This document shows positions 1 to 10,442 of a stretch of 64,000 bases of DNA, piece by piece. The notes below the pieces were generated by a model. The model was not told the DNA's origin. It saw only the letters and a program-made list of their open reading frames with translations, and did no database searches. Both the position numbers and the translations under genes were made by a program. Within the stretch, counting starts at the first letter, position 1. Each line of letters opens with the position of its first letter. The stretch is taken from positions 1 through 64,000 of the forward strand of contig NZ_SCML01000001.1 of assembly GCF_005503365.1 (NCBI RefSeq). Direction: 5' to 3'. The stretch comes from Hydrogenophaga sp. 2FB. GTDB lineage: Bacteria > Pseudomonadota > Gammaproteobacteria > Burkholderiales > Burkholderiaceae_C.

Positions 1-594
1 AAGCGTCCTCGGCGCAACAAGGCCGCCAAGCTCAGGCAACCGAAGCAGCTTGCCCACGCGATCAACGAGATCTGGAGCATGGATTTCGTGGCCGATGCAC
101 TCTTCGACGGTCGAAAGCTGCGCATGCTCACGGTGGTCGATTTGTTCACGCGAGAGAGTCTGGCCATCGACGTTGGTCAAAGCCTCAAGGGCGAGGACGT
201 CGTTCGTGTGCTCACGGCGATCACACAAGAGCGAGGGCTGCCGCGCACGATCAAGTCGGACAATGGCAGCGAGTTCATCTCCAAGGTGATGGACAAGTGG
301 GCGTACGAGCGCGGGGTGGAGCTTGACTTCAGCCGCCCGGGCAAACCGACCGACAACGCCAATGTGGAGAGCTTCAACGGACGGCTGCGTCAGGAGTGCC
401 TCAATGCCACCTGGTTCATGTCAATCGACGACGCTCGGGGCAAGATCGAGGCATGGCGGCAGTACTACAACGAGAGTCGTCCCCACTCCGCGCTAGACTG
501 GGCCACACCCGCCGAATTCGCCCGTCATTGCAGGCAATTGCCTGCAATGACGATCTCAGAGGAGCCGGAAATCCCTACTTCCGCGCGGTACTGA
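1..594 (+). CDS. IS3-family transposase (OrfB integrase domain), 5' truncated by window edge
   Basis: This is the C-terminal 197 codons of a DDE recombinase that moves an IS3-type element. The frame is open from base 1. The catalytic acidic residues are visible: D in MDFVAD, D in SDNGSEF, and E in the VESFNGRLRQECLN block that is typical of IS3-family OrfB. The conserved C-terminal YNESRPHSAL segment is present. The stop codon lies inside the first copy of a 50-bp tandem repeat that forms the right end of the element. The subgroup (IS407-like) is a guess from the wording of the core. The left end and any orfA lie outside the window. Confidence 0.93.
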   Translation, partial: KRPRRNKAAKLRQPKQLAHAINEIWSMDFVADALFDGRKLRMLTVVDLFTRESLAIDVGQSLKGEDVVRVLTAITQERGLPRTIKSDNGSEFISKVMDKWAYERGVELDFSRPGKPTDNANVESFNGRLRQECLNATWFMSIDDARGKIEAWRQYYNESRPHSALDWATPAEFARHCRQLPAMTISEEPEIPTSARY

Positions 595-660
595 ATCGGG
601 TACAGGGTCAGGAGCCGGAAATCCCTACTTCCGCGCGGTACTGAATCGGGTACAGGGTCA
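561..660. repeat. Perfect 50-bp tandem duplication at the right end of the IS
   Basis: Bases 561-610 and 611-660 are identical 50-mers that start ggagccggaa and end tacagggtca. The reverse complement of the distal end starts TGACCCTG, which fits the TGA-starting terminal repeats of the IS3 family. The transposase stop (592-594) lies in the first copy, so the second copy is a duplicated IS end, either from nested insertion of a related element or from slippage. Confidence 0.9.
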
Positions 661-1133
661 ATAGGGCCGCCACCTGCCGACTACAACTCAATGGTTGAAA
701 GCCAGCGAAAGAACTGTAGCACGGGGAAATACCTCCAAGTATTACTTTTTCATAATAGATACACCGACTTCCTCTCTTTCCGAGAATCGCAAGTCCTTGT
801 TTAAAACACCATTTGTAGTGGATCGAAAAAAGTACGACCACTACCAGTAGTGTTTGTCGCCCCTCAAGACAAGAGTCCAAAGTAGATCCACTTCAATATG
901 TAAAAATTTGCAATCGCAACAGTTGAAAAATCTGACAGCTCAAAGCAATTCCCCGTCAGCGGAAAGTTCACAAACACTAGATGTAGTGCGTCGTAATAGC
1001 GGACACACTACAAATGGTGTCTAAGCCAAGGGGCGAGTGACGCCCAGTGGCATCGCCATGCCGAGCTCCGGCCCGCGTGGTGCCCGGGTTTGCTCCAGGC
1101 GGCCCCGCCAGTTCCCCGGCGAGGCCACCCCCT
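661..1133. other. A/T-rich non-coding stretch between the IS and the small-gene cluster
   Basis: No convincing gene is seen in about 470 bp. Frames on either strand are short and lack start signals or protein-like composition. Base composition is clearly more A/T-rich than the downstream core, especially at 720-960. The main content is the inverted-repeat element at 806-1020. No tRNA or obvious attachment core was recognised. Confidence 0.6.
806..1020. repeat. Symmetric nested inverted-repeat element (MITE-like or recombination/regulatory site)
   Basis: The outer arms are a perfect 15-bp inverted repeat: ACACCATTTGTAGTG at 806-820 and its complement at 1006-1020. Inside each arm, 17-18 bp further in, sits a small palindrome CACTA-N4-TAGTG (839-852 and 975-988). 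In both arms it is preceded by TACGAC and followed by TTTG when read inward. The two halves are therefore imperfect inverted copies of about 50 bp around a centre of about 110 A/T-rich bases. No clear target-site duplication flanks it. It could be a non-autonomous transposon, a recombinase-binding site or a control region. Confidence 0.6.
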
Positions 1134-1283
1134 TTAATCCTCCGCCGGCGCGCCCCTGTGGTCACTATCCAGTTGCGCCAGCCGCGCAGCCTCGTTGGTC
1201 AACGTGAGGGGAAGCAGCTCGCTCGGCACATCCCAGTCCGAGATGTGGTGGGCGGCGACGGCGATGCAGTCTTCGAATGACAT
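1134..1283 (-). CDS. Hypothetical 49-aa protein, last gene of the small-gene cluster
   Basis: This small frame starts at ATG 1283, ten bases after the stop of the upstream 56-aa membrane protein. It encodes an acidic, soluble, probably helical peptide that begins MSFEDCIAVAAHHISDW and ends GAPAED. No family is recognised. The case for it is position: it closes a run of closely spaced same-strand small genes with overlapping starts and stops. Codon use is compatible with coding, but so short a frame could be chance. No signal peptide or membrane segment is visible. Confidence 0.45.
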   Translation of the reverse strand: MSFEDCIAVAAHHISDWDVPSELLPLTLTNEAARLAQLDSDHRGAPAED

Positions 1284-1292
1284 GTTGATTCC

Positions 1293-1463
1293 TTACTTGA
1301 GAATGAAGAGAACGAGGGTGATGGCCACCACGACCAGGCAGGCCGCGAGGATCGGATTGAGGAAGCACAGGACCGCGATGCATGCGATGCCGAACGTGCG
1401 CGTGCCCGCAAAGAGCATCGAGACGACGGCCGCTGCCAGGAGAGCACCGATGAGGTTCGTCAT
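1293..1463 (-). CDS. Hypothetical 56-aa hydrophobic membrane peptide
   Basis: The protein is almost entirely hydrophobic, with two predicted membrane helices: about residues 4-19, and 24-55 broken around the FLNP turn. Its start codon overlaps the stop of the preceding 146-aa gene as ATGA (1460-1463), which suggests translational coupling. Similar tiny two-helix proteins occur as phage holin-like or toxin-like peptides, but nothing here proves such a role. The 4-bp overlap and the clean membrane pattern make it more likely real than chance. Confidence 0.6.
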   Translation of the reverse strand: MTNLIGALLAAAVVSMLFAGTRTFGIACIAVLCFLNPILAACLVVVAITLVLFILK

Positions 1464-1900
1464 TCGGTCCCCTTGCGTGACTTGCGCTTCTCCGTGGAGG
1501 GTGTGAACAGCGAGGCGATCGGTACTTCGGGATTCCGCGCATATCCCCGGGCACCCTCCGGCATCGGGATCAGCGCCCCGAGACCCAGCAGGACCGCCAT
1601 GAGGAAGCCGCAGGTGTTGACGGAGCGACCCGCGTACAGCTCACGAAAGCTGGAGGACGTGATGGGGCCCTCGCCCGCGATCACACCCTCAATCTCCTTG
1701 GCGAAGATCCAGTCCCGCGCGAACATTCCCCGACCGCTGTTCTCGTAGATGCGGATGAAGAACTCCCGCTCCCCGATGTGGCCCAGGTGGTAGGTCAGCG
1801 TGGATCGACCGGAGACGGATGGGCACTGACCCTCGCGCAGGATCTGAACGAGTTCGTCGAGGGTTGGGGCTTCATTGATGATGTTTCCTTCGATGGACAT
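1460..1900 (-). CDS. Hypothetical 146-aa protein with one C-terminal membrane segment
   Basis: The N-terminal about 100 residues look soluble and mixed alpha/beta, with a YHLGHIGEREFFIRIYENSGRGMF stretch split by charged residues. They are followed by one hydrophobic helix (about 105-122, GFLMAVLLGLGALIP) and a basic tail ending EKRKSRKGTE. A good ribosome site (AGGAG) lies upstream of ATG 1900 and overlaps the stop of the previous gene at 1910. The 3' end overlaps the next small gene by 4 bp. The family is unknown. The membrane-anchored layout and tiny membrane neighbours suggest these products act together at the envelope. Confidence 0.7.
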   Translation of the reverse strand: MSIEGNIINEAPTLDELVQILREGQCPSVSGRSTLTYHLGHIGEREFFIRIYENSGRGMFARDWIFAKEIEGVIAGEGPITSSSFRELYAGRSVNTCGFLMAVLLGLGALIPMPEGARGYARNPEVPIASLFTPSTEKRKSRKGTE

Positions 1901-1909
1901 AGATGACTC

Positions 1910-2110
1910 CTATTGGTTGGTGTTGATGAGCCGCGCAAGTGCGGCGGTGGGGAACTGACGGATGACGAGAAGGAGTGCGAGGGCCTCGGCGAGATCACGG
2001 GGAATGCCCGCGTCGAACTGCATGACGGCCGCCCTCTCCTCCCAGGCCTCTCTCAGGTTCTCGTCGAGGAGGTGGGCGAAGTCGGCGACGATGGGATGGC
2101 TATCGCTCAA
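1910..2110 (-). CDS. Hypothetical 66-aa helical protein with TTG start
   Basis: The protein reads MSDSHPIVADFAHLLDENL at the N-terminus and is mostly amphipathic helix. The start codon is TTG at 2110, supported by a strong CAGGAG ribosome site seven bases upstream and by the absence of a better ATG. Twenty-three bases upstream of the start lies the T-run of a strong intrinsic terminator (2133-2156), which leaves no room for a separate promoter. Its stop overlaps the ribosome site of the 146-aa gene. The family is not recognised. Confidence 0.65.
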   Translation of the reverse strand: MSDSHPIVADFAHLLDENLREAWEERAAVMQFDAGIPRDLAEALALLLVIRQFPTAALARLINTNQ

Positions 2111-2132
2111 TGGGTTCTCCTGAGTGCGAACG

Positions 2133-2156
2133 AAAAAAAACCACCGCGCGGGTGGT
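2133..2156 (-). terminator. Strong intrinsic terminator between two small genes
   Basis: Read leftward, a perfect 6-bp stem ACCACC/GGTGGT with loop CGCGC is followed by eight T. It lies 24 bases after the stop of the 114-aa gene and 23 bases before the TTG start of the next gene. Confidence 0.8.
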
Positions 2157-2179
2157 CATGGGTGGGGATGGGTGTGGGG

Positions 2180-2524
2180 TCACTGGATGGACTCCCGACA
2201 GTGCTCGATGAGTCGGGCATCGACTCCGGGGCGCACGGGGACGTACACCACCACGCCGAAGCCGTCATCGCTCAGCACATATGTCAGCTCGAACCAACCC
2301 GGATGCGCCTCGATGACGTCCAGCGGGCGGTCCAGCAACTGAAACCCCAGCTCGGCGTCGATGGTCATCAGCGCGTCGCCGGGATCGATCACAACTATGT
2401 GGACCATCTGGGATAGGTCGCAGTCGTAGTCGGACAGGTCATCGATGAGTCGGGCGATCAGAGGAGCGAGAGTGGGGTCGGTGACGGAGCCCCGAATCGA
2501 GGCGGAATCACGCATTACCTGCAT
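2180..2524 (-). CDS. Hypothetical 114-aa soluble acidic protein
   Basis: The protein starts MQVMRDSASIRG. It is acidic, with strong alternating beta/alpha character (SQMVHIVVIDPGDALMT, FGVVVYVPVRPG). ATG 2524 is chosen because AGGAAA lies eight bases upstream; a longer frame to 2584 would run back through the terminator at 2545-2578. No signal peptide or membrane segment is present and no family is recognised. It is bracketed by intrinsic terminators on both sides, an odd arrangement shared with its neighbours. Confidence 0.7.
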   Translation of the reverse strand: MQVMRDSASIRGSVTDPTLAPLIARLIDDLSDYDCDLSQMVHIVVIDPGDALMTIDAELGFQLLDRPLDVIEAHPGWFELTYVLSDDGFGVVVYVPVRPGVDARLIEHCRESIQ

Positions 2525-2544
2525 GGGATGTTTCCTTTCAGACG

Positions 2545-2578
2545 AAAAAAAGCCCCGGAGGTCGAAACCTGCCGAGGC
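2545..2578 (-). terminator. Intrinsic terminator just upstream of the 114-aa gene
   Basis: Read leftward, arms GCCTCGG and CCGGGGC (one mismatch) are extended by AGG/CCT around loop TTTCGA and followed by seven T. The T-run ends 21 bases before ATG 2524, so the next gene depends on read-through or regulated termination. Confidence 0.65.
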
Positions 2579-2605
2579 GAACACAACGAGTGAATTTGAG
2601 AGGCT

Positions 2606-2785
2606 CTATGTCACGAGGCCTCGGAGCTTCCCACGCAGGGTCCACCCCAGGACGCACAGCGAGGCCACGAGGAGCGCGAGCGCCACCAGAAGTGCCACCT
2701 TGAACACCGAGGCCATGGCCGCCGCCGCACCAAGCTTCACGAGCGAGAGCGCAAGGGGGATTGCGAGGATGGGTATCCAGATCAT
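2606..2785 (-). CDS. Hypothetical 59-aa two-helix membrane protein
   Basis: ATG 2785 is preceded by a GAAAGGAAA ribosome site and begins MIWIPILAIPLALSLVKLG. Two hydrophobic helices (about 1-25 and 27-48) end in a short basic tail, WTLRGKLRGLVT. A longer frame to 2833 would read through the terminator hairpin and is rejected. The size and hydrophobicity resemble phage-type small membrane proteins, but no family is recognised. The stretch upstream of the start is nearly the same as at the 114-aa gene (T-run, CGTC, GAAAGGAAA), so the two leaders look duplicated. Confidence 0.65.
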   Translation of the reverse strand: MIWIPILAIPLALSLVKLGAAAAMASVFKVALLVALALLVASLCVLGWTLRGKLRGLVT

Positions 2786-2806
2786 TGATTTCCTTTCATA
2801 CGGACG

Positions 2807-2839
2807 AAAAAAAGCACCCGAGGATTTCTCCATGGGCGC
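2807..2839 (-). terminator. Intrinsic terminator downstream of the lipoprotein gene
   Basis: Read leftward, GCGCCC pairs with GGGTGC and GGA with TCC around loop GAAA, followed by seven T. The T-run ends 22 bases before the start of the 59-aa membrane gene, the same spacing as at the two other terminators in this cluster. Confidence 0.65.
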
Positions 2840-2861
2840 CGGGGATGGGATGTCGCTAGAT

Positions 2862-3854
2862 TTAGGGCTTGATGAAGCCCTTCGGGAAGAAGATCATGGA
2901 AGCCGACCGTGATCGCGCAAAGTAGCCAAACTGCACTCCGCTTCCTTCAGACTCGTAATACCGGTAGACGAAGGGCATCAAGCGCGTGTACTCCGGCGGG
3001 GACTTGTATTCAAGTGGATAGAACTCTCTGATGTCCAACACGAGTCGATTGATCGCCGAGAGATTTGTCGGAGGGTCTCGGAGATCAACGACGATCTGCG
3101 TCATCGCTCCATTCCGATCGAAGTCAACCTTGTAGCGCTCTAAATCCTTGCTGAAGGCTCGCCCAGTCATCTCCATGTGAACGCAGCGCATGTTGCCGCT
3201 GGACTCAGCCTCAGTGGATTCCCGGCAGACAAACCCCATCCTCTCGACCTCCGCCCTCGACATGTCGAATCGGATTCCGTTGTGACCGCCACTTGATCCA
3301 CTTCGACCGGGATTCGCTGAGGGGGCCTGGGCAACTCCACGCGCCCTCGCAGCCTCCCGATCCTTTGCGTCCACAACTACACGGGTCTCGGCAGCTACTC
3401 GGTCAGCCTCCCGCTTCTTCGCTTCATCTCGTTGTCGCTCACGCTCAAGCGCAGCGCCCTCCTCCGCAGCTCGTAGCTTCTCGCGTTCGACGGCGTGGTC
3501 CACGACTTTTTGCGCCGAGGGGACGCCGTCAACTAGATGAGCGGCAGCATTAGCGGGCGGGGTCTCCTGCGGAATGACTCTAGTACGGCTCCGGGCCTCA
3601 CATCTTGAAATCCCCTTGGACCGCAACACATCCTGCAGTTGCCGCTCCGTCTTGGGGCCGATCAACTGATTGTTGTAGGCCCGGCAAAGCTGATCGTCGT
3701 TCATTCCCTGCAGCATTTCAAGGCGGTTCAGCTCCGTCATGTTCTCCGCGATGTTGTGTGAGATGGCGCCGCACGCAGTCAAAAGCGGTAGAAGGCACAA
3801 GCCAGCAATGCGTCTTCCCCCGCGCCCGGCCATTGATAGAACAAACAAACTCAT
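2862..3854 (-). CDS. Unknown lipoprotein with a charged coiled-coil linker
   Basis: ATG 3854 has AGGAG seven bases upstream. The first 28 residues form a lipoprotein signal (GGRRIAGLCLLPLLTAC), with the acylated Cys at about 28. The N-terminal part is helical, the middle (about 130-200) is a highly charged Ala/Glu/Arg coiled-coil-like stretch, and a Gly/Ser linker leads to a C-terminal folded domain (about 215-330) starting IRFDMSRAEVERMGFVCRE. That start resembles the 'GxxPGM' opening of small exported proteins such as the one at 6115-6603, hinting at a shared fold. It is first in the leftward cluster, divergent from the XRE repressor, and probably under the twin operators at 3935-3984. Confidence 0.75.
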   Translation of the reverse strand: MSLFVLSMAGRGGRRIAGLCLLPLLTACGAISHNIAENMTELNRLEMLQGMNDDQLCRAYNNQLIGPKTERQLQDVLRSKGISRCEARSRTRVIPQETPPANAAAHLVDGVPSAQKVVDHAVEREKLRAAEEGAALERERQRDEAKKREADRVAAETRVVVDAKDREAARARGVAQAPSANPGRSGSSGGHNGIRFDMSRAEVERMGFVCRESTEAESSGNMRCVHMEMTGRAFSKDLERYKVDFDRNGAMTQIVVDLRDPPTNLSAINRLVLDIREFYPLEYKSPPEYTRLMPFVYRYYESEGSGVQFGYFARSRSASMIFFPKGFIKP

Positions 3855-3934
3855 GGTTCTCCTAGTTATTGATGGTTGATGTGATGAAGGAAACGGACGG
3901 CCACTAATGGCCATCCGCAAGGAGACAATCCGAT

Positions 3935-3984
3935 GTCACGTTTTTCGTGACGACAGATTATCGCCACGTCACGAGACTCGTGAC
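3935..3984. promoter_or_regulatory. Twin operators GTCACG-N5-CGTGAC between the XRE gene and the leftward cluster
   Basis: Two perfect 17-bp palindromes, GTCACGtttttCGTGAC (3935-3951) and GTCACGagactCGTGAC (3968-3984), have centres 33 bp apart, about three helical turns. A shared -10-like GATTATC lies between them (3956-3962). A -35-like element can be placed in operator 1 for rightward and operator 2 for leftward transcription. The second operator touches the ATG chosen for the repressor. This is the layout expected of a phage-type autorepressor. Confidence 0.75.
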
Positions 3985-4311
3985 ATGGTTTTGGAGCCTG
4001 GACACACACCCAACCTCGTCGGAAAGCGAATTCGCTCACGACGGGAAGAGTTGGGCTGGTCTCAGGAAAAATTGGGTGTGGCCATCGGACTGGACGAGTC
4101 GTCGAGCCGGGCAAGGATCAGCCGCTATGAGCTGGGGAACCATGAGCCCCAGTTGGGGACCGCGCGCAACATTTCGAAGGCGTTGGGTGTGCCATTGGCC
4201 TACCTCTACTGTGAGGAGAACGATGTGGCCGAGTTGCTACTTGCGCTGCAGGGAATAAAGGGCAAACGACGCGCAGGCCTGATTTCCTCTTGGCTGGAAC
4301 AAGTCGCATAG
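3985..4311 (+). CDS. XRE/Cro-CI family transcriptional repressor
   Basis: This 108-aa DNA-binding protein has an HTH_3 domain at about residues 10-68: LVGKRIRSRREELGWSQEKLG, then a recognition helix in SSRARISRYELGNHEPQ, then ISKALGVPLAYLY. A basic C-terminal tail follows. I chose ATG 3985, directly after the second operator. A longer frame from 3907 would place both operators inside the gene and add a low-complexity N-terminus. The chosen start lacks a ribosome site, so the message may be leaderless, as for several phage repressors. It probably represses itself and the divergent cluster through GTCACG-N5-CGTGAC. Confidence 0.8.
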   Translation: MVLEPGHTPNLVGKRIRSRREELGWSQEKLGVAIGLDESSSRARISRYELGNHEPQLGTARNISKALGVPLAYLYCEENDVAELLLALQGIKGKRRAGLISSWLEQVA

Positions 4312-4480
4312 CCCTCGCACACGCGCCGACGTGGACCGACGCCACATCTCGGAAATCGAGCTTGGGCGAAATACCCCAGGCCTGCGCCTCATATTCAAGC
4401 TCTGTGATGCACTCGACGTCGCGCCCTCGGATCTCATCAAGGACATCGAGAGACGGATGCGGGTGCAGGGCCCGCGCTAG
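4283..4480 (+). pseudogene. Remnant of a second XRE-type HTH protein
   Basis: A frame open from 4283 with no usable start encodes, from about 4322, RADVDRRHISEIELGRNTP, then LRLIFKLCDALDVAPSDLIK and a basic end. This is the second half of an HTH_3 domain, in which ISEIE is the recognition helix. The first half of the domain is missing. Its position directly after the intact XRE gene, in another frame, suggests a broken second regulator or a product of recombination. It could only be expressed by frameshift or an unusual start. Confidence 0.6.
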
Positions 4481-4664
4481 CGGCGGTGGCGGCCCAGGGG
4501 GTGCACGCGGGTGCCCCAGAATGGTCCCAGGGGGAGCCGTCGGTGCCGGGGGATGACCACCCCCATGGCTGGTGGTTGCGCGGCACCTGCGGCCAGTTTT
4601 GTGGTGTGCTCTACGGCAGCACCTGGTCTACCATCGGGCCCGCACCAAAACGATCAATGGCTAG

Positions 4665-4937
4665 ATGAAGCGCACTGACCAGCTACTCTCGGATCTCGAC
4701 TACCTTGAGATGACGGGACTGACATTGGCTCAGCTCAGGTCACTACATCATTGGTCCGATCGACCCGAAGCAAGTGAGCGAGTGACGTTCAGCAGCGTGC
4801 GCGATTACTTTTCCTGCGGACGCGGAATGAGACAGAACAACGCGGCCTTTGCGGAGCGGCTTCGGATGGTTGCGGACCTGCATCGGCGCGGAATTGCGGG
4901 TCTGGTAGAAACCGCTCTACTCAAGCACCCGCTCTGA
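4665..4937 (+). CDS. Hypothetical 90-aa helical protein
   Basis: ATG 4665 begins MKRTDQLLSDLDYLEMTGLT. The protein is mostly helical and mildly basic, without signal peptide or membrane segment. No domain is recognised. It is the first gene of the rightward series of accessory genes. Its ribosome site is weak, and about 180 bp of featureless sequence lies between it and the HTH remnant. It might be a small regulator or orphan partner protein; nothing in the sequence decides. Confidence 0.5.
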   Translation: MKRTDQLLSDLDYLEMTGLTLAQLRSLHHWSDRPEASERVTFSSVRDYFSCGRGMRQNNAAFAERLRMVADLHRRGIAGLVETALLKHPL

Positions 4938-5029
4938 CGTTCCACGACCTCATTCGGCTATTCTCGCGATGCTGATGTGGCACTCCTCCACGAGAATCCG
5001 CAGTTCCCCAACCAACAACGAGACCGGCA

Positions 5030-5482
5030 ATGTCATCAAGAAGAATTTTTCTCGCCATCGGGCTAGCCGCCGCGCTGTCCGGTTGCACGACACTCCAAAC
5101 GCAAACACTTCAACCTGAAGGATTGCGGGCGTACAAGAGGGTGTACGTCGAACAGCCGCAGGAGGATGAGTTTCTTGTCGTACCCGCCCTCACGCACGAA
5201 CTAAACGACATGGGCTTCGAGGTGGTCGGAAAGCCATTCAATGACCCCCTTGATTCGGATCTGGTGGCGAAGGTGAACGGAGTGGGCGGGTGGGACATGA
5301 CTCGATACCTGCAGAGTCTTCAGCTTCAGTTCCTTGCCGCGAAGTCTGGCCGCGTCGTCACAACGTCCTCGTTCTACTCAAAGGGACTCTGGCAAGGAGT
5401 CCGGGATGCTCGCCTCAAGGCAGTCTTCAATGACCTCAGGGCAAAGAACGGATACCCACCATCGAAGCAGTTTGGACAATAG
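5030..5482 (+). CDS. Unknown 150-aa lipoprotein
   Basis: The protein starts with a classical lipoprotein signal, MSSRRIFLAIGLAAALSGC, with the lipid-attachment Cys at 19. The mature part (about 130 residues) has a beta-alpha-beta flavour: RVYVEQPQEDEFLVVPALTHEL, then GFEVVGKPF. This recalls small outer-membrane lipoproteins of the DUF799/DUF4136 sort, but that resemblance is only in style. It is expected to sit in the periplasm-facing envelope. It lies in tandem with other unknown exported or membrane proteins of the island. Confidence 0.7.
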   Translation: MSSRRIFLAIGLAAALSGCTTLQTQTLQPEGLRAYKRVYVEQPQEDEFLVVPALTHELNDMGFEVVGKPFNDPLDSDLVAKVNGVGGWDMTRYLQSLQLQFLAAKSGRVVTTSSFYSKGLWQGVRDARLKAVFNDLRAKNGYPPSKQFGQ

Positions 5483-5520
5483 CCCATGATGAATCGGGTG
5501 CACCACTGGGTTTGCAAAAA

Positions 5521-6057
5521 ATGACCAAGCCACCGCCAGAGTCCAGTCTGGAGGAAGCCATCTTCGTGGGCAAGGTACTGACGATGATGGCCAACCGGAT
5601 GGTCACTGAACTTGTGGCGTTTTCGAGCTGGATGATCCTCGGATTTTCCGCCGTACTCGGACTCCTACTCGCCAACCTTGACACCGTATCAAAGTTTTTG
5701 GAACCGACAACCACCGGAATGGTAGTAAAGCTTTTTGCAATGTCCGTCCTCTTGCATGTCGTTCAGCGGTACCTAGCCGCAATCGTCATGGCGGGCGCGG
5801 CGCTTGGGAAAGAGTTGGAGTCCGTTCCTCCCAAAAACATTGATGTCGAGCGGTTTACGCAGAAATTGGAAGAGGCTACCCTGTGGCCAACTCGTTACAT
5901 GGTTCGGTGGTCCAACAAAAAGATTCTTGCGGGAGACCTTGCGGTGGGTGGCAGGATGCACGCGGTGTTAGCTCAAGTACTAGCATGGCTAGCCTTTGCT
6001 CAGGCTATCGCTGCAATCACCGCTGCTTTATTTATCGCCAACTCACTTCAAAGCTGA
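5521..6057 (+). CDS. Unknown 178-aa membrane protein
   Basis: ATG 5521 is preferred to the TTG at 5512. The N-terminus is soluble. Two hydrophobic segments at about 30-50 and 62-85 form a hairpin, a soluble charged loop (about 90-140) contains WPTRYMVRWSNKK, and a final helix (about 150-172) is rich in Ala. It is an inner-membrane protein of unknown family. There is no catalytic motif. It lies 38 bases after the lipoprotein and 57 bases before the next exported protein, so a common transcript is likely. Confidence 0.65.
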   Translation: MTKPPPESSLEEAIFVGKVLTMMANRMVTELVAFSSWMILGFSAVLGLLLANLDTVSKFLEPTTTGMVVKLFAMSVLLHVVQRYLAAIVMAGAALGKELESVPPKNIDVERFTQKLEEATLWPTRYMVRWSNKKILAGDLAVGGRMHAVLAQVLAWLAFAQAIAAITAALFIANSLQS

Positions 6058-6114
6058 GCTGCACTTCAACAGTGCCTCTGCCCTCCTGTGCTCTTGCTAT
6101 TCCTCGGAGACAAA

Positions 6115-6603
6115 GTGAACGTACGTTTTCCTCTCGTCATACCCTTTGCTGCGGCTCTCTCAGTTTGTTTGGCTCAAGCTTTCGAGATCAAAGGAATTAC
6201 TCCTGGGATGGACAAGGCCGAATTCGTACAAAAATTTGGGGAGCCACCTTTGCAGGGCTTCACCATTGCCGAAGTGCCCAGCAAGTACAAGCGCTTTGAC
6301 GTTTTCTTTGGGGAGGATGGCAAGCTGTCTTCACTCAACTTCTTTTTTGACTCGGACGACTTCGAGCACATGATGGACGCGGTACGTGAGAAGTATCCCA
6401 AGCTCAGATGTCAAAACTCAAGCGTGACGAACCTGTATGGCGCTCGGCTTACGCAGACCGAATGCTCTCTGGATGATCAAACGGGCAAGCTCACGCTCTC
6501 ACGTTTCGTGAATGACGTAAACACATCAAGCCTCTCGCTGTACTCCTCAAAAATGCTGAAAGAAATGGGGAGTAGACAGGTAAAGCGGAACAAGGACTTG
6601 TAA
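6115..6603 (+). CDS. Unknown 162-aa periplasmic protein
   Basis: GTG 6115, preceded by CGGAGA, gives an N-terminal signal peptide (MNVRFPLVIPFAAALSVCLAQA) that is cleaved before FEIKG. The mature domain begins 'EIKGITPGMDKAEFVQKFG', the common opening of small exported SmpA/BamE-like or DUF-type repeats. It has a predicted cystine pair (Cys in LRCQN and TECSLDD). The function is unknown. Its likely relatedness to the C-terminal domain of the lipoprotein at 2862-3854 is suggested by the same opening pattern. Confidence 0.65.
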   Translation: MNVRFPLVIPFAAALSVCLAQAFEIKGITPGMDKAEFVQKFGEPPLQGFTIAEVPSKYKRFDVFFGEDGKLSSLNFFFDSDDFEHMMDAVREKYPKLRCQNSSVTNLYGARLTQTECSLDDQTGKLTLSRFVNDVNTSSLSLYSSKMLKEMGSRQVKRNKDL

Positions 6604-6861
6604 GAGGGTCTTACTACGCTGTTGGCCCAAAATCGGCGGCTGCGCGCATGAGCCTGTGGGCTTTTACACCTGCTCTGTACGAGAGAGCATTGGGGCCCTC
6701 GGTGTTCGGGCGCACCAAATTGGGTTGAGGACTGGAGCGTTGTGTTGAATTTCGCACAGTGTGACCACACCCTCGCAGTTAATCGAGCAGCATGTTTGAG
6801 TCCCCTGCAGAAACATGGGGTGGGCTTGGTATCCTGAGTGAAAGTCAACCAGGGTCTTCAG

Positions 6862-7641
6862 ATGCGAAGCTTGAAAGCGGGAGTTTTCGCCGCGATGTTT
6901 TCCGGATTGGCGCTGCCAACGGTAGTCGCAGCCCTGGACTTGAATCCCCCGAAAGTAACAGACTCGACCGCGCGTAGCATTACCCTGCGCCAGATGCCCG
7001 GCTTCGAAGCGCGATGCTTCAAGAACTCGACACTTCGCCTAGACAGTGACTGGGCCAACCCAACGAAGGCCAGCAGTGACCATGTCACCAAAGTTGAGGT
7101 GCGGAATGGCGTCGAGTACCTCACCGTGTCAGCTAAGGTGGGCACAAACGCTCTCAAATTCCTGATGGAGCTGAATGCTGATGGAAGCATACGAAGGGTG
7201 CCTGCCCTGGTTGAAACCAGTATTCCTGGCTTCGAAAAGGAGTATGGGCCTGCGGTGTCTCAAATGATGACTCGCTTGATGGCGGGCATGGGCGATGGCT
7301 TCCTCGGTCAAACCCTTGAGGTCGGGAAGGACTACGGGGCCACGATGAACATCTGCACTGTGATGGGGGCGCAGTCCTCCTCTTCGCCGAAAGGGAAGAC
7401 GTTACTTGAGGGCACCCTCACCTACGCAGGACGGCCCGGCTTCCTCGTGTCCCAGACCTACGAACAAGAGTGCACAACCAACGGCGTACGCCTCTCTGTT
7501 GAGGGCAGTGCATGGTCGGTGTATGACCTCGCGTCAAACCTCGTTATGAGCAACGCTGGCAGCTTCGAACTGTACGCACAAGGGACCCGATTCCGCCGCA
7601 CGGAGGAGTTTCTTGAGTGCGGAGTTACCGAGAAGAAGTGA
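6862..7641 (+). CDS. Unknown 259-aa exported protein
   Basis: ATG 6862 gives a signal peptide MRSLKAGVFAAMFSGLALP, ending in VVA-A before LDLNPP. A longer GTG start at 6838 would hide the signal. The mature region contains four Cys (about 50, 166, 205 and 255 from this start) that could form two disulfides, and a beta-rich pattern (VEVRNGVEYLTVSAKVG, GTLTYAGRPGFLVSQTY). The family is not recognised. It is preceded by about 230 bp of featureless intergenic DNA and ends the rightward series of the island. Confidence 0.65.
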   Translation: MRSLKAGVFAAMFSGLALPTVVAALDLNPPKVTDSTARSITLRQMPGFEARCFKNSTLRLDSDWANPTKASSDHVTKVEVRNGVEYLTVSAKVGTNALKFLMELNADGSIRRVPALVETSIPGFEKEYGPAVSQMMTRLMAGMGDGFLGQTLEVGKDYGATMNICTVMGAQSSSSPKGKTLLEGTLTYAGRPGFLVSQTYEQECTTNGVRLSVEGSAWSVYDLASNLVMSNAGSFELYAQGTRFRRTEEFLECGVTEKK

Positions 7642-8006
7642 TAGCCAGGTCTTCGGCCAATGCATGCGCGCTTCTCTCCAAGCCACTTCAACGCGGCCGG
7701 GGTCTGCTTCATTGTGGGAAATCCATTCGGAGAAAATACCTCCGTACAGCCACCAAATCAGCGCAAAAAGGTCGCCTCGAGCTACTTCTTGCGACTGTGA
7801 CAGACCTTGCGTATTCCAGAGTTGCTGAGCAGCAGGTCCGGTCTCATGATCATGAAGTCCGGTGTTCAAGATCAACAGCGGCTACCTCGAAGTCTGCACT
7901 CGTTGCGTTGCGGTGAGCGCGGCGGCTAGACTTCGGCTATCGGCTCGATGTCGCCATTCATGCGTTGCGACTTCAACCGGTGAAGGACCGGCACGGGGTC
8001 CCTTTT
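7642..8006. other. Intergenic stretch, no gene supported
   Basis: About 365 bp lie between convergent genes. Open frames here (for example the minus-strand frame running to 7875) overlap the 3' end of the exported-protein gene and lack a ribosome site. Apart from a possible terminator at 7985-8007 I see nothing. Confidence 0.5.
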
Positions 8007-8007
8007 T
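7985..8007 (+). terminator. Possible intrinsic terminator for the rightward island genes
   Basis: GGACC pairs with GGTCC across a 7-base loop, followed by C and TTTTT. It abuts the 3' end of the convergent lipoprotein gene. Confidence 0.4.
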
Positions 8008-8441
8008 CATGCTCCGGGTTTGGTCACCGGCCAGGTACTGGTGGATGTCAGGTGTCTTGTCGTGCACGCGTCAAACGCCTCGATCTGGCTACGCGTGTTG
8101 ATCAATTTGGAGCCCTTCGATTCCCACAGCTCTACAGCGCCGTCATCCATTACGTCGGCACTCACTGAAACGAGGGTCGTGCCGACAAGCGTTTCAATCC
8201 TGTACCCCGCCGCCCGCCGATTCATACGGTGCGTAGAGTTCGTGAAAATGCCAAACGAACCGGCGAAGCCATCGCTTACGCAATCGGCAACTGCCTGCAC
8301 CTTTGACGCCTCGATTTTGCCGGCGCGCAGGAGAAAGAAACCGTCAGGGTCAGTAGTGCGGCTATGCACAGGGGTGTTGACCATGACCGAGCAGCCTGAC
8401 AGGACAGCCACGGTCAGCAAGATAAGAGGCGCTTTGAGCAT
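8007..8441 (-). CDS. Unknown 144-aa lipoprotein
   Basis: From ATG 8441 the protein begins MLKAPLILLTVAVLSGC, a textbook lipoprotein signal with Cys at 17. A longer frame to 8489 would put 16 residues before the signal and is rejected. The mature part is about 127 residues, beta-rich, with a conserved-looking RMNRRAAGYRIETLVGTTLVS stretch and two Cys that may pair. The family is unknown. It is the last accessory gene before the core-like aceA region. Confidence 0.65.
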   Translation of the reverse strand: MLKAPLILLTVAVLSGCSVMVNTPVHSRTTDPDGFFLLRAGKIEASKVQAVADCVSDGFAGSFGIFTNSTHRMNRRAAGYRIETLVGTTLVSVSADVMDDGAVELWESKGSKLINTRSQIEAFDACTTRHLTSTSTWPVTKPGA

Positions 8442-8739
8442 GAGGATGTTGCAATTTGTTATCGTTGTCGCATTTTGCTGGTAAAGCATTCCCGACGCTA
8501 CTGCCGCGTCGTCAACAGCTCTTGCCCGCTACCCTCACCATGCCTTAGCCTCCGCGCACGCTACGGCCAACATTCTGGAAAACAAAGCCGACAGTGACGG
8601 GCAGGGCTTGAACAAATCGAGCGGCCTGCCTGTTCAGCTCGAACCAGACTGCTGGTCAAGTTGTGCTGGACTGGCCGATCACGAACGACTGGAATACGCA
8701 GACCTTGGGCCAACAGCGTAGCAATTACCCGTCGTACAG
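8442..8739. other. Junction between accessory island and core region, no gene seen
   Basis: About 300 bp lie between the lipoprotein start and the aceA terminator. I found no frame with coding character, no tRNA and no repeat. Composition changes across this stretch from the lower-G+C island to the high-G+C core. Confidence 0.5.
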
Positions 8740-8764
8740 AAAAAAGCCGCCCCGAAAGGGCGGC
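8740..8764 (-). terminator. Intrinsic terminator of aceA
   Basis: Read leftward, a perfect 7-bp stem GCCGCCC/GGGCGGC with a 5-base loop is followed by six T, beginning 30 bases after the aceA stop. Confidence 0.85.
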
Positions 8765-8793
8765 CTTGTCTCCTCTGTTCAGTGAGGCGCAGC

Positions 8794-10125
8794 TCAGTGG
8801 AACTGCTCTTCCTCGGTCGAACCCGTCAGCGCCTTCACGCTCGAAGAACCGCCCTGGATCACCGTGGTCACGTCGTCGAAGTAACCCGCGCCCACTTCCT
8901 GCTGGTGCGACACGAAGGTGTAGCCCTTGTCGCGTGCGGCGAATTCGGGTTCCTGCACCATTTCCGTGTAGTGCTTCATGCCTTCGCCGCGGGCATACGC
9001 GTGGGCGAACTGGAAGGTGTTGAACCAGTTGATGTGGATGCCGGCCAGCGTGATGAACTGGTACTTGTAGCCCAGCGCGGCCAAGTCTTCCTGGAACGAC
9101 GCGATCTGCTTGTCGTTGAGGTTCTTCTTCCAGTTGAACGACGGCGAGCAGTTGTACGACAGCAGCTTGCCAGGGCAAGCGCCTTGCACGGCTTGGGCGA
9201 ATTCGCGGGCGAAGCCGATGTCGGGCACGCCGGTTTCACACCACACCAGGTCGGCGTAGGGTGCGTAGGCGATGCCGCGGCTGATGGCTTGTTCCAGACC
9301 GTTCTTGACGCGGTAGAAACCTTCCTGCGTGCGCTCGCCGGTCAGGAAAGGCTTGTCGTTGGCGTCGTGATCGCTGGTGATCAGGTTGGCGGCTTCAGCG
9401 TCGGTGCGGGCCAGCACGATGGTGGACACGCCCATGACGTCGGCGGCGAAACGCGCGGCAATCAGCTTTTCGCATGCTTCCTGCGTGGGCACGAGCACCT
9501 TGCCACCCATGTGGCCGCACTTCTTCACGGCGGCCAGTTGGTCTTCGAAGTGCACGCCCGCAGCACCGGCGGCGATCATGTTCTTCATCAGCTCGAACGC
9601 ATTCAACACACCACCGAAACCGGCTTCGGCGTCGGCCACGATCGGCAGGAAGTAGTCGATGAACTCCGGGCTGCCCGGCTCGATGCCACGTCCCCACTGG
9701 ATTTCGTCGGCGCGCTTGAAGGTGTTGTTGATGCGGCGAACCATGGTCGGCACCGAGTCGTAGGCGTAGAGCGACTGGTCGGGGTACATGGTTTCGGAGG
9801 TGTTGCCGTCGGCGGCGACCTGCCAGCCCGAGAGGTACACAGCTTCCAGGCCAGCCTTGGCCTGTTGCATGGCCTGTCCAGCGGAGATGGCGCCGAAGGC
9901 GTTCACGTAGCCTTTCTTCGCGCCGCCGTTGACCTTGTCCCACAGCTTTTCGGCACCGCGCTTGGCGAGCGTGTGCTCGATCTGCATGCTGCCACGCAGG
10001 CGCACGACGTCCGCAGCGGTATAGCCACGCTTCACACCCTTCCAGCGGGGGTTGGTCGCCCAGTCTTTTTCCAGGGCGTCGATTTGCTGCTGACGGCTCA
10101 GTTGTTCGGTCAGGGATTGGGGCAT
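8794..10125 (-). CDS. aceA: Isocitrate lyase
   Basis: The enzyme cleaves isocitrate to glyoxylate and succinate, the first step of the glyoxylate shunt, and is cytosolic. The protein has 443 aa, the usual bacterial length. The catalytic KKCGHMGGK loop lies at about 201-209 with the active Cys at about 203, and the metal-binding YPDQS and ADAEAGFGG motifs are intact. ATG 10125 is chosen because AGGAG stands upstream; a 15-codon longer frame lacks a ribosome site. It is monocistronic, closed by a strong terminator, and preceded by a region with two palindromic operators. With acs at the window's right end it supports growth on acetate or fatty acids. Confidence 0.97.
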
Positions 10126-10442
10126 GTGAATACTCCTTGAGGTGAATGGGAGGGGCCGGCAAGGCTGCATGCAATCGCGATGCCGTTGGGATGACTTTAA
10201 GTCTTATAGAAGACTTTGAGAAGCTCTTATGTCTTATATAAGATAAAAAATTTCCTGTTTATTTTCAACGATCTTTTTATCGAATATCTCTATATGGAAA
10301 TCGATTTCTCACATTGAGAAAATTTCCTGCGGCGCAACAATTTTAGTTTTCATATTGCAAAACAAAAATCTCTCATACCGAAATGCTGCTCGGTGCGTCG
10401 GGCATGATGCGCTCCACTTTCGTGCACCGCTTTGAAAACACC
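10126..10442. promoter_or_regulatory. A/T-rich divergent control region of aceA and the EamA transporter
   Basis: About 315 bp without a gene, markedly A/T-rich at 10195-10380. It contains the palindromes described at 10199-10245 and several A/T tracts suited to promoters for both directions. Confidence 0.6.
10199..10245. promoter_or_regulatory. Two tandem palindromic operators upstream of aceA
   Basis: AAGTCTT-ATAG-AAGACTT (10199-10216) is a perfect 7-bp inverted repeat. TCTTATATAAGA (10232-10243) is a perfect 12-bp palindrome. Both contain GTCTTATA-N-AAGA in the same orientation, 30 bp apart. This looks like a dimer-binding site used twice. The style suits GntR/FadR-type regulators, but the regulator itself is not in this window. 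Confidence 0.65.

Follow-up and report, generated by a model that had tools for sequence, protein, structure and literature searches.

Predicted intrinsic terminators at conserved positions may lower expression stepwise along a mobile-element operon

The window, i.e., the whole 64,000-nucleotide stretch of Hydrogenophaga sp. 2FB DNA that was analysed, carries seven genes and three hairpins with T-runs in series on the minus strand. These are listed below in the order of transcription, preceded by a divergent gene and the putative promoter region.

3985 to 4311, plus strand: HTH_3 repressor-like gene, divergent from the operon (Pfam HTH_3, E 5e-13).
3935 to 3986, minus strand: putative operon promoter region, palindromes GTCACG-N5-CGTGAC (3935-3951 and 3968-3984), candidate twin operators, flanking a -10 element, GATAAT (3962-3957).
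2862 to 3854, minus strand: lp330, lipoprotein-like first (cargo) gene, 330 amino acids (aa), no protein family matched.
2841 to 2807, minus strand: terminator T1, hairpin 2841-2814 and T-run 2813-2807 (7 T), 21 nucleotides (nt) ahead of the tm59 ATG.
2606 to 2785, minus strand: tm59, membrane protein, 59 aa, ATG at 2785.
2578 to 2545, minus strand: terminator T2, hairpin 2578-2552 with a UUCG loop and T-run 2551-2545 (7 T), 20 nt ahead of the o114 ATG.
2180 to 2524, minus strand: o114, core protein, 114 aa, ATG at 2524, homologues found.
2157 to 2133, minus strand: terminator T3, hairpin 2157-2139 overlapping T-run 2140-2133 (8 T), 22 nt ahead of the o66 TTG at 2110.
1910 to 2110, minus strand: o66, core protein, 66 aa, TTG start, phrog_22422 (E 3e-6).
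1460 to 1900, minus strand: o146, core protein, 146 aa, phrog_28971 (E 2e-8).
1293 to 1463, minus strand: tm56, membrane protein, 56 aa, homologues in relatives.
1134 to 1283, minus strand: o49, core protein, 49 aa, homologues in relatives.

T1, T2 and T3 each consist of a GC-rich hairpin with a U-run directly after it, which is the sequence pattern of an intrinsic terminator. The initial annotation had reported three leftward structures of this kind, and they were recovered at these sites; the folding energies, which it had proposed as a check, were -16.0, -16.8 and -9.3 kcal/mol for T1, T2 and T3, respectively. The spacing to the next start, given there as a fixed 21 to 23 nt, is in fact 20 to 22 nt and does not follow a rule, as it ranges from 15 to 45 nt among those terminators of relatives that lie within 60 nt of a start. 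The likeness seen between two of the leaders was real: T1 and T2 have T7-CGTC and GAAAGGAAA in common, and T3 has T8-CGTTCG instead.

The hairpins were compared with dinucleotide shuffles (n = 200), using one long and one short stretch per terminator. The z scores were -1.8 (10/200 shuffles as good) and -0.8 (37/200; this second stretch lost part of the stem) for T1, -2.4 (7/200) and -3.3 (0/200) for T2, and -0.95 (36/200) and -1.95 (7/200) for T3. T2 alone stands out against the shuffles, the deviations of T1 and T3 being modest. When window positions 1 to 10000 were scanned with a plain motif, terminator-like sites were not in excess (8 found versus 9.2 expected), and T1 was not picked up. 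Because the scan gave no excess and the shuffle support was modest, the case is built on position and conservation and not on the hairpins by themselves.

The genes of the operon are real and are part of a conserved module of an integrative element. No Pfam family fits any of the seven operon proteins above the cut-off, none of the ten window proteins compared with PADLOC matched a family there, and neither ten o114 members (Pfam) nor ten o146 members (NCBIfam) matched a family. Sequence comparison with solved structures gave chance-level matches only. The AlphaFold2 models of o114 and o146 are confident (pLDDT of 89.7 and 91.3, respectively); the o114 fold has no significant match in the PDB, and the o146 fold has none in the PDB (Foldseek, E 0.28 or worse) or among viral models. 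The weak, nonsignificant matches of o146 included winged helices and, at E 0.45 or worse, ROQ domains and the activation domain of MotA. The Gammaproteobacterial o146 relatives (L061 to L069) have a Lys/Ala/Pro-rich N-terminal tail that looks nucleic-acid binding by eye. A guess by eye that o114 is related to ArdB/KlcA was dropped, with no Pfam match in ten members and no significant fold match. The products had been described initially as small, partly membrane proteins of unknown function; tm59 does look membrane bound by eye, and o114 and o66 do not. No known function emerged, yet the proteins belong to the conserved core of an integrative element.

The o146 gene was detected in 10 of 200 genomes of the family, and o114 was detected in the same 10, including that of the window; in the class, o146 was present in 8 of 369 genomes. 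A scan of named genomes yielded 33 loci, many of them in Burkholderiales (including Hydrogenophaga palleronii, Ottowia thiooxydans, Acidovorax, Delftia, Comamonas, Ramlibacter and Roseateles), some in Rhodocyclales and Gammaproteobacteria, and others in MAGs with other labels. Single-query protein searches matched one Pseudomonas plasmid for o114 and one for o146, and the Pseudomonas plasmid pA62H2 encodes both proteins. The identity of o114 to the window copy was 23 to 49% in 22 of 24 relatives and 70 and 78% in the other two. In viral collections, where relatives of a phage satellite might occur, no o146 relatives were found (phage records and viral contigs), and o114 had one weak match of 47 residues in a viral contig. 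Single-query searches gave no DNA-level matches in phages or plasmids and no match to the 330-aa protein in named genomes; the position of lp330 is taken by other genes in most relatives inspected.

The gene order in the relatives is a divergent HTH gene, variable cargo, o114, o66, o146, tm56, o49, a gap, a replication gene and a tyrosine integrase, as determined by Pfam for the genes of L030, L035 and L091 and by eye for the rest. By Pfam, L030 has a VapE-like protein and an integrase, and L035 has DUF3631, PriCT_2 and Prim-Pol as well as an integrase; L091 is VapE-like by Pfam, with the integrase/replication linkage taken from the record annotation. A tyrosine integrase and a replication gene are thus linked to the module in these three relatives, as is characteristic of an integrative element. 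A filamentous-phage origin, which was the first idea, was dropped once the relatives showed integrase and primase-type genes.

In the genome of the window (G000), the start of contig C104 (L122) encodes an AAA_25 protein (779-2287) and a Phage_integrase gene (2416-3588) and probably represents the other half of the element. An insertion sequence (IS) end is located at window positions 590 to 660, with a 21-bp tip repeated 50 bp apart. Since an 18-bp stretch of this tip (window 594-610 and 644-660) recurs near the C104 start, the IS may split the element between the two contigs. Two nested pairs of inverted repeats (795-820/1006-1031 and 839-857/970-988) lie in the gap past o49, ahead of the expected position of the replication gene, and are a possible origin or promoter. 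An isocitrate lyase gene (by eye; 8794-10170) is found near the element, as it is in L030, L032 and L054, and its 3' end may be an integration site. ArdB/KlcA-type antirestriction genes (PF03230) were seen downstream of the module in L064 (7081), L068 (7065), L071 (882), L033 (10082), L037 (14893-15378) and L041 (6947-7441); in the last three, the gene comes after o49.

The position of the terminators was studied in the relatives with a rule requiring a hairpin of -9 kcal/mol or better and a T-run 8 to 60 nt before the start. Such a terminator preceded 16/26 o114 genes (one a fragment), 14/18 o66 genes (that of the window included) and 3/7 tm59 genes; tm59 follows a terminator in L030 and L039 as well as in the window. 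For the other module genes, the counts were 3/46 (o146), 0/22 (tm56), 2/22 (o49) and 0/2 (lp330). Control open reading frames (ORFs) of at least 120 aa gave 0/50 in the window and 18/384 in other loci, i.e., 18/434 in total. At least five of these 18 are themselves element genes, namely, antirestriction genes (L064, L068, L071 and L037) and, in L060, the gene that comes after o114, so the control is blurred. The Fisher P value for 30/44 versus 18/434 is approximately 1e-24 and is overstated, since related loci were treated as independent. The leader arrangement that the initial annotation had suggested seeking in related islands is thus kept there. The ArdB/KlcA-type genes of L064, L068, L071 and L037 likewise begin just past a hairpin and T-run.

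Ten of the 26 o114 starts failed this strict rule; of these, L042 is a gene fragment and L048 a filter effect. In L030 and L038, the hairpin ahead of o114 is kept and the T-run is lost. These failures and losses indicate that T2 is dispensable. In L091 (plasmid pA62H2, 11261-11312), the terminator hairpin contains the TTG that is annotated as the start of the o114 homologue, and the ATG at approximately 11312 looks like the better start. A mini-ORF, MxITxxFxPR, precedes o114 in L053, L057 and L060 (in a looser form in L060) and stands alone behind a hairpin in L085.

Gene ends were screened with less strict settings (-7 kcal/mol, in a zone reaching from 40 nt upstream to 100 nt downstream of the stop). 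A terminator was found at the end of 24/25 intact o114 genes, compared with 2/19 for o66, 3/46 for o146, 8/22 for tm56, 0/22 for o49 and 52/434 for the control ORFs (4/50 in the window and 48/384 elsewhere). The sole o114 without one, in L078, has a different gene order around it. The distance from the o114 stop to the hairpin is 22 to 25 nt in 9/24 cases, and the hairpin overlaps the gene end in L056 and L031. Behind this terminator, o66 starts after 15 to 38 nt, and any other gene in this place starts after at least 44 nt.

Fifteen chosen leaders have in common a six-pair outer stem varying on both sides, a 2x2 internal loop, GGA/UCC and a mostly GNRA-type loop. Both-sided changes occurred in 24 of 135 cells; since pairing was the basis on which the 15 rows were selected, the range of pair types is the sole informative feature of this alignment. 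The T1 hairpin of the window is of this T2 type of the relatives and is a training row of the covariance model R1. In the 200 family genomes, R1 gave seven matches of at least 45 bits, all of them its own training rows, which match by construction; six are at the module, and one (G027) is beside an ORF resembling an integrase piece by eye. No place beyond the training rows reached 45 bits. Many matches of 25 to 39 bits occurred elsewhere, and 95/200 genomes had a match at E 0.01 or better. Some of the 23 lower-scoring matches that were fetched, for instance L100 and L102, are built alike on visual inspection, with host terminators among them. The idea that the motif is private to the element was therefore rejected in part, as the design is also found in host terminators. 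The pattern CYYGGAGNRATCCYHNGG was present in 6/200 family genomes, three times at the module (G023, G111 and G174), once at L085 (G027) and twice elsewhere, and misses other module copies, including that of the window. The pattern CCGCCCATNGAGGCGGNTTTT, representing some but not all T3 variants, was present in 5/200 genomes, four times at the module. Because the exact T2-type sequence is typical of the element and the design is used elsewhere too, real terminators are favoured over a private aptamer.

A promoter scan of window positions 1 to 10000 gave three sites (3.2 expected), and the GATAAT site (9/12) was the only one on the minus strand. By eye, the twin-palindrome arrangement around it is present in L032, L035, L054 and L055, with variants in L034, L037, L041, L048 and L056, and was not seen in L030, L031, L033, L036, L039 and L042. 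A divergent HTH homologue lies upstream in 16/25 o114 loci, the window included. The likelier start of the HTH gene is the ATG at 3985, though its ORF is open from 3907. A C-terminal piece of a second HTH protein (4331-4480) lies beside the first, and the same HTH type occurs in L030 and L039 (by eye). A stem in the first-gene leader of the window (3894-3917, CGGATGGCCA-TTAG-TGGCCGTCCG) was considered as a conserved leader hairpin past the promoter and rejected, being absent from the other 15 leaders inspected.

In the region between hairpin and start, the best sigma-70 score of 34 leaders averaged 6.1/12, versus 5.9 in shuffles. None of the 34 leaders had a site of at least 9/12 there, as judged by the sigma-70 pattern only, and none fitted TANNNT between terminator and start, where the median room is 5 nt. 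The terminators of these leaders are thus not followed by a sigma-70-like promoter before the next gene, as expected of internal terminators and as the initial annotation had claimed in stating that no room is left for one. The downstream genes are probably made by read-through, which that annotation had also predicted, because such promoters are missing from the 34 spacers and because the terminator behind o114 is kept even where o66 is lost.

On balance, the favoured explanation is that position-conserved internal terminators step expression down along one mobile-element operon. The region would be a single operon of a chromosomally integrated element with an HTH repressor, a replication gene and a tyrosine integrase, and transcription would be driven from a repressor-controlled promoter at approximately 3957 to 3986. 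From the DNA sequence, we infer that the intrinsic terminators directly ahead of the ribosome-binding sites of tm59, o114 and o66 work and that each stops a share of the polymerases. The promoter-proximal cargo genes would then be made most and the core genes o66-o146-tm56-o49 least, with graded expression as the presumed purpose. A published precedent (PMC9045158) backs the inference of graded expression through partial read-through. T3 of the window, weak in energy and not extreme against shuffles, counts against this explanation. Of the two programmes proposed initially, attenuation or antitermination, attenuation within a single operon is favoured as the most probable, and antitermination by a dedicated system found no support.

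Regulated antitermination is nevertheless conceivable, if rather unlikely. The resting terminators would block tm59, o114, o66 and the genes behind them, and an induced factor from the element, the host or a helper phage would open all at once, with o146 as a candidate nucleic-acid binder. Lambdoid N/nut and HK022 put are antitermination systems giving regulated read-through and would supply the read-through that this reading requires. Consistent with it, terminators recur before several genes of one element, including the C104 integrase, which is preceded by a hairpin with T7-CGTCTG, again a T7-CGTC junction, that is kept in L030 and L039, and further T2-type copies occur in L045 and L042. 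Pyrimidine-G-pyrimidine-C follows the U-tract in 27/55 terminators of the module stretch versus 15/95 elsewhere, the latter count leaving out 14 loci and including a few element cargo terminators. The winged-helix matches of o146 point in the same direction, but none is significant. Unlike N/nut and put, no shared stem past the promoter was seen in the leaders of 16 loci by a stem scan, which was not exhaustive. Rfam matched no family other than tRNA in the window, and in L032, L033, L034, L035, L039, L041, L042, L048 and L054 it matched three tRNAs and nothing else. The occurrence of the hairpin design in some host terminators also argues against antitermination. A more specific version, in which the series of terminators and ribosome-binding sites forms gates that one trans-acting factor (of element, host or helper) opens together, cargo being made at rest and the core and integrase genes only on induction, is unlikely when taken as a whole. 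For a cis-acting attenuator with an alternative antiterminator hairpin, a conserved pairing partner upstream of T2 is unlikely, because variable cargo genes occupy that stretch.

It is quite unlikely that the hairpins are mainly the 3' ends of separate cargo transcripts. The later genes would then come mostly from internal promoters farther downstream, e.g., one within o66 for o146, and o66 and tm59 would hardly be made. The cargo upstream of T2 does vary among relatives while T2 mostly stays, and o66 can go missing while T3 remains. However, tm59, o114 and o66 are probably expressed, given that they are conserved and that, by eye, each retains a ribosome-binding site past its terminator, and no sigma-70-like promoter fits ahead of them.

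A role in RNA processing or stability, with stem-loops protecting 3' ends or shaping processed 5' ends and the U-tract masking the ribosome site, appears improbable. Folding predictions pair GAAAGGAAA with the U-tracts of T1 and T2, and in 25/34 leaders the ribosome site was predicted to be less open when the U-tract was present than when a random stretch took its place (mean of 0.32 versus 0.43). This effect is small, base composition leads one to expect U to pair with a purine-rich site, and a protecting hairpin needs no U-run of 5 to 8; masking was set aside as weak. Chance juxtaposition of hairpins and open frames, to which the lack of terminator excess in window positions 1 to 10000 and the shuffle results for T1 and T3 would lend themselves, is hardly credible, as it is contradicted by the gene and terminator positions conserved in relatives.

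These results point to a betaproteobacterial family of small integrative elements with terminators at conserved positions within the core operon; one of the core genes has Gammaproteobacterial relatives. The conservation of this arrangement in relatives suggests that the expression level of each gene is set by the stops. If the terminators act as gates, elongation rather than initiation would be the level at which a mobile element is controlled; if they are fixed leaks, the operon would be a clear-cut natural example of terminators that encode expression ratios. No published description of this arrangement was found in the open-access literature, subscription journals being mostly outside the scope of the search.

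Besides lambdoid N/nut and HK022 put, other known systems are comparable. In bacteriophage P4 immunity, early transcription termination occurs via the CI RNA and seqA, and the Rfam C4 and isrK profiles detect P4-type CI RNAs (PMC10111431). As in P4, termination would separate the genes of an integrative element that has a primase-type replication gene and an integrase. Unlike P4, with its RNA factor and target, the element described here has intrinsic terminators and an HTH repressor gene, and no C4/isrK RNA was matched by Rfam in the window or in nine relatives. In cluster K mycobacteriophages, the ESAS are imperfect 17-bp inverted repeats beside the 13-bp SAS (PMC3203893). Both arrangements place inverted repeats just upstream of start codons in a subset of genes and keep them gene by gene, but the element has a hairpin with a U-tract, whereas the account consulted mentions no T-run for the SAS/ESAS (PMC3203893). 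In clostridial ABC-importer operons, internal intrinsic terminators set transcript ratios, and two with poly(U) above 5 terminated >90% (PMC9045158); such terminators are also reported to set ratios in operons of an archaeon (PMC10450193). As in these operons, the terminators lie between codirectional genes, and the later genes are predicted to be made by read-through. The operon described here differs in having several predicted terminators in series, each directly before a ribosome-binding site, among small genes of a mobile element.
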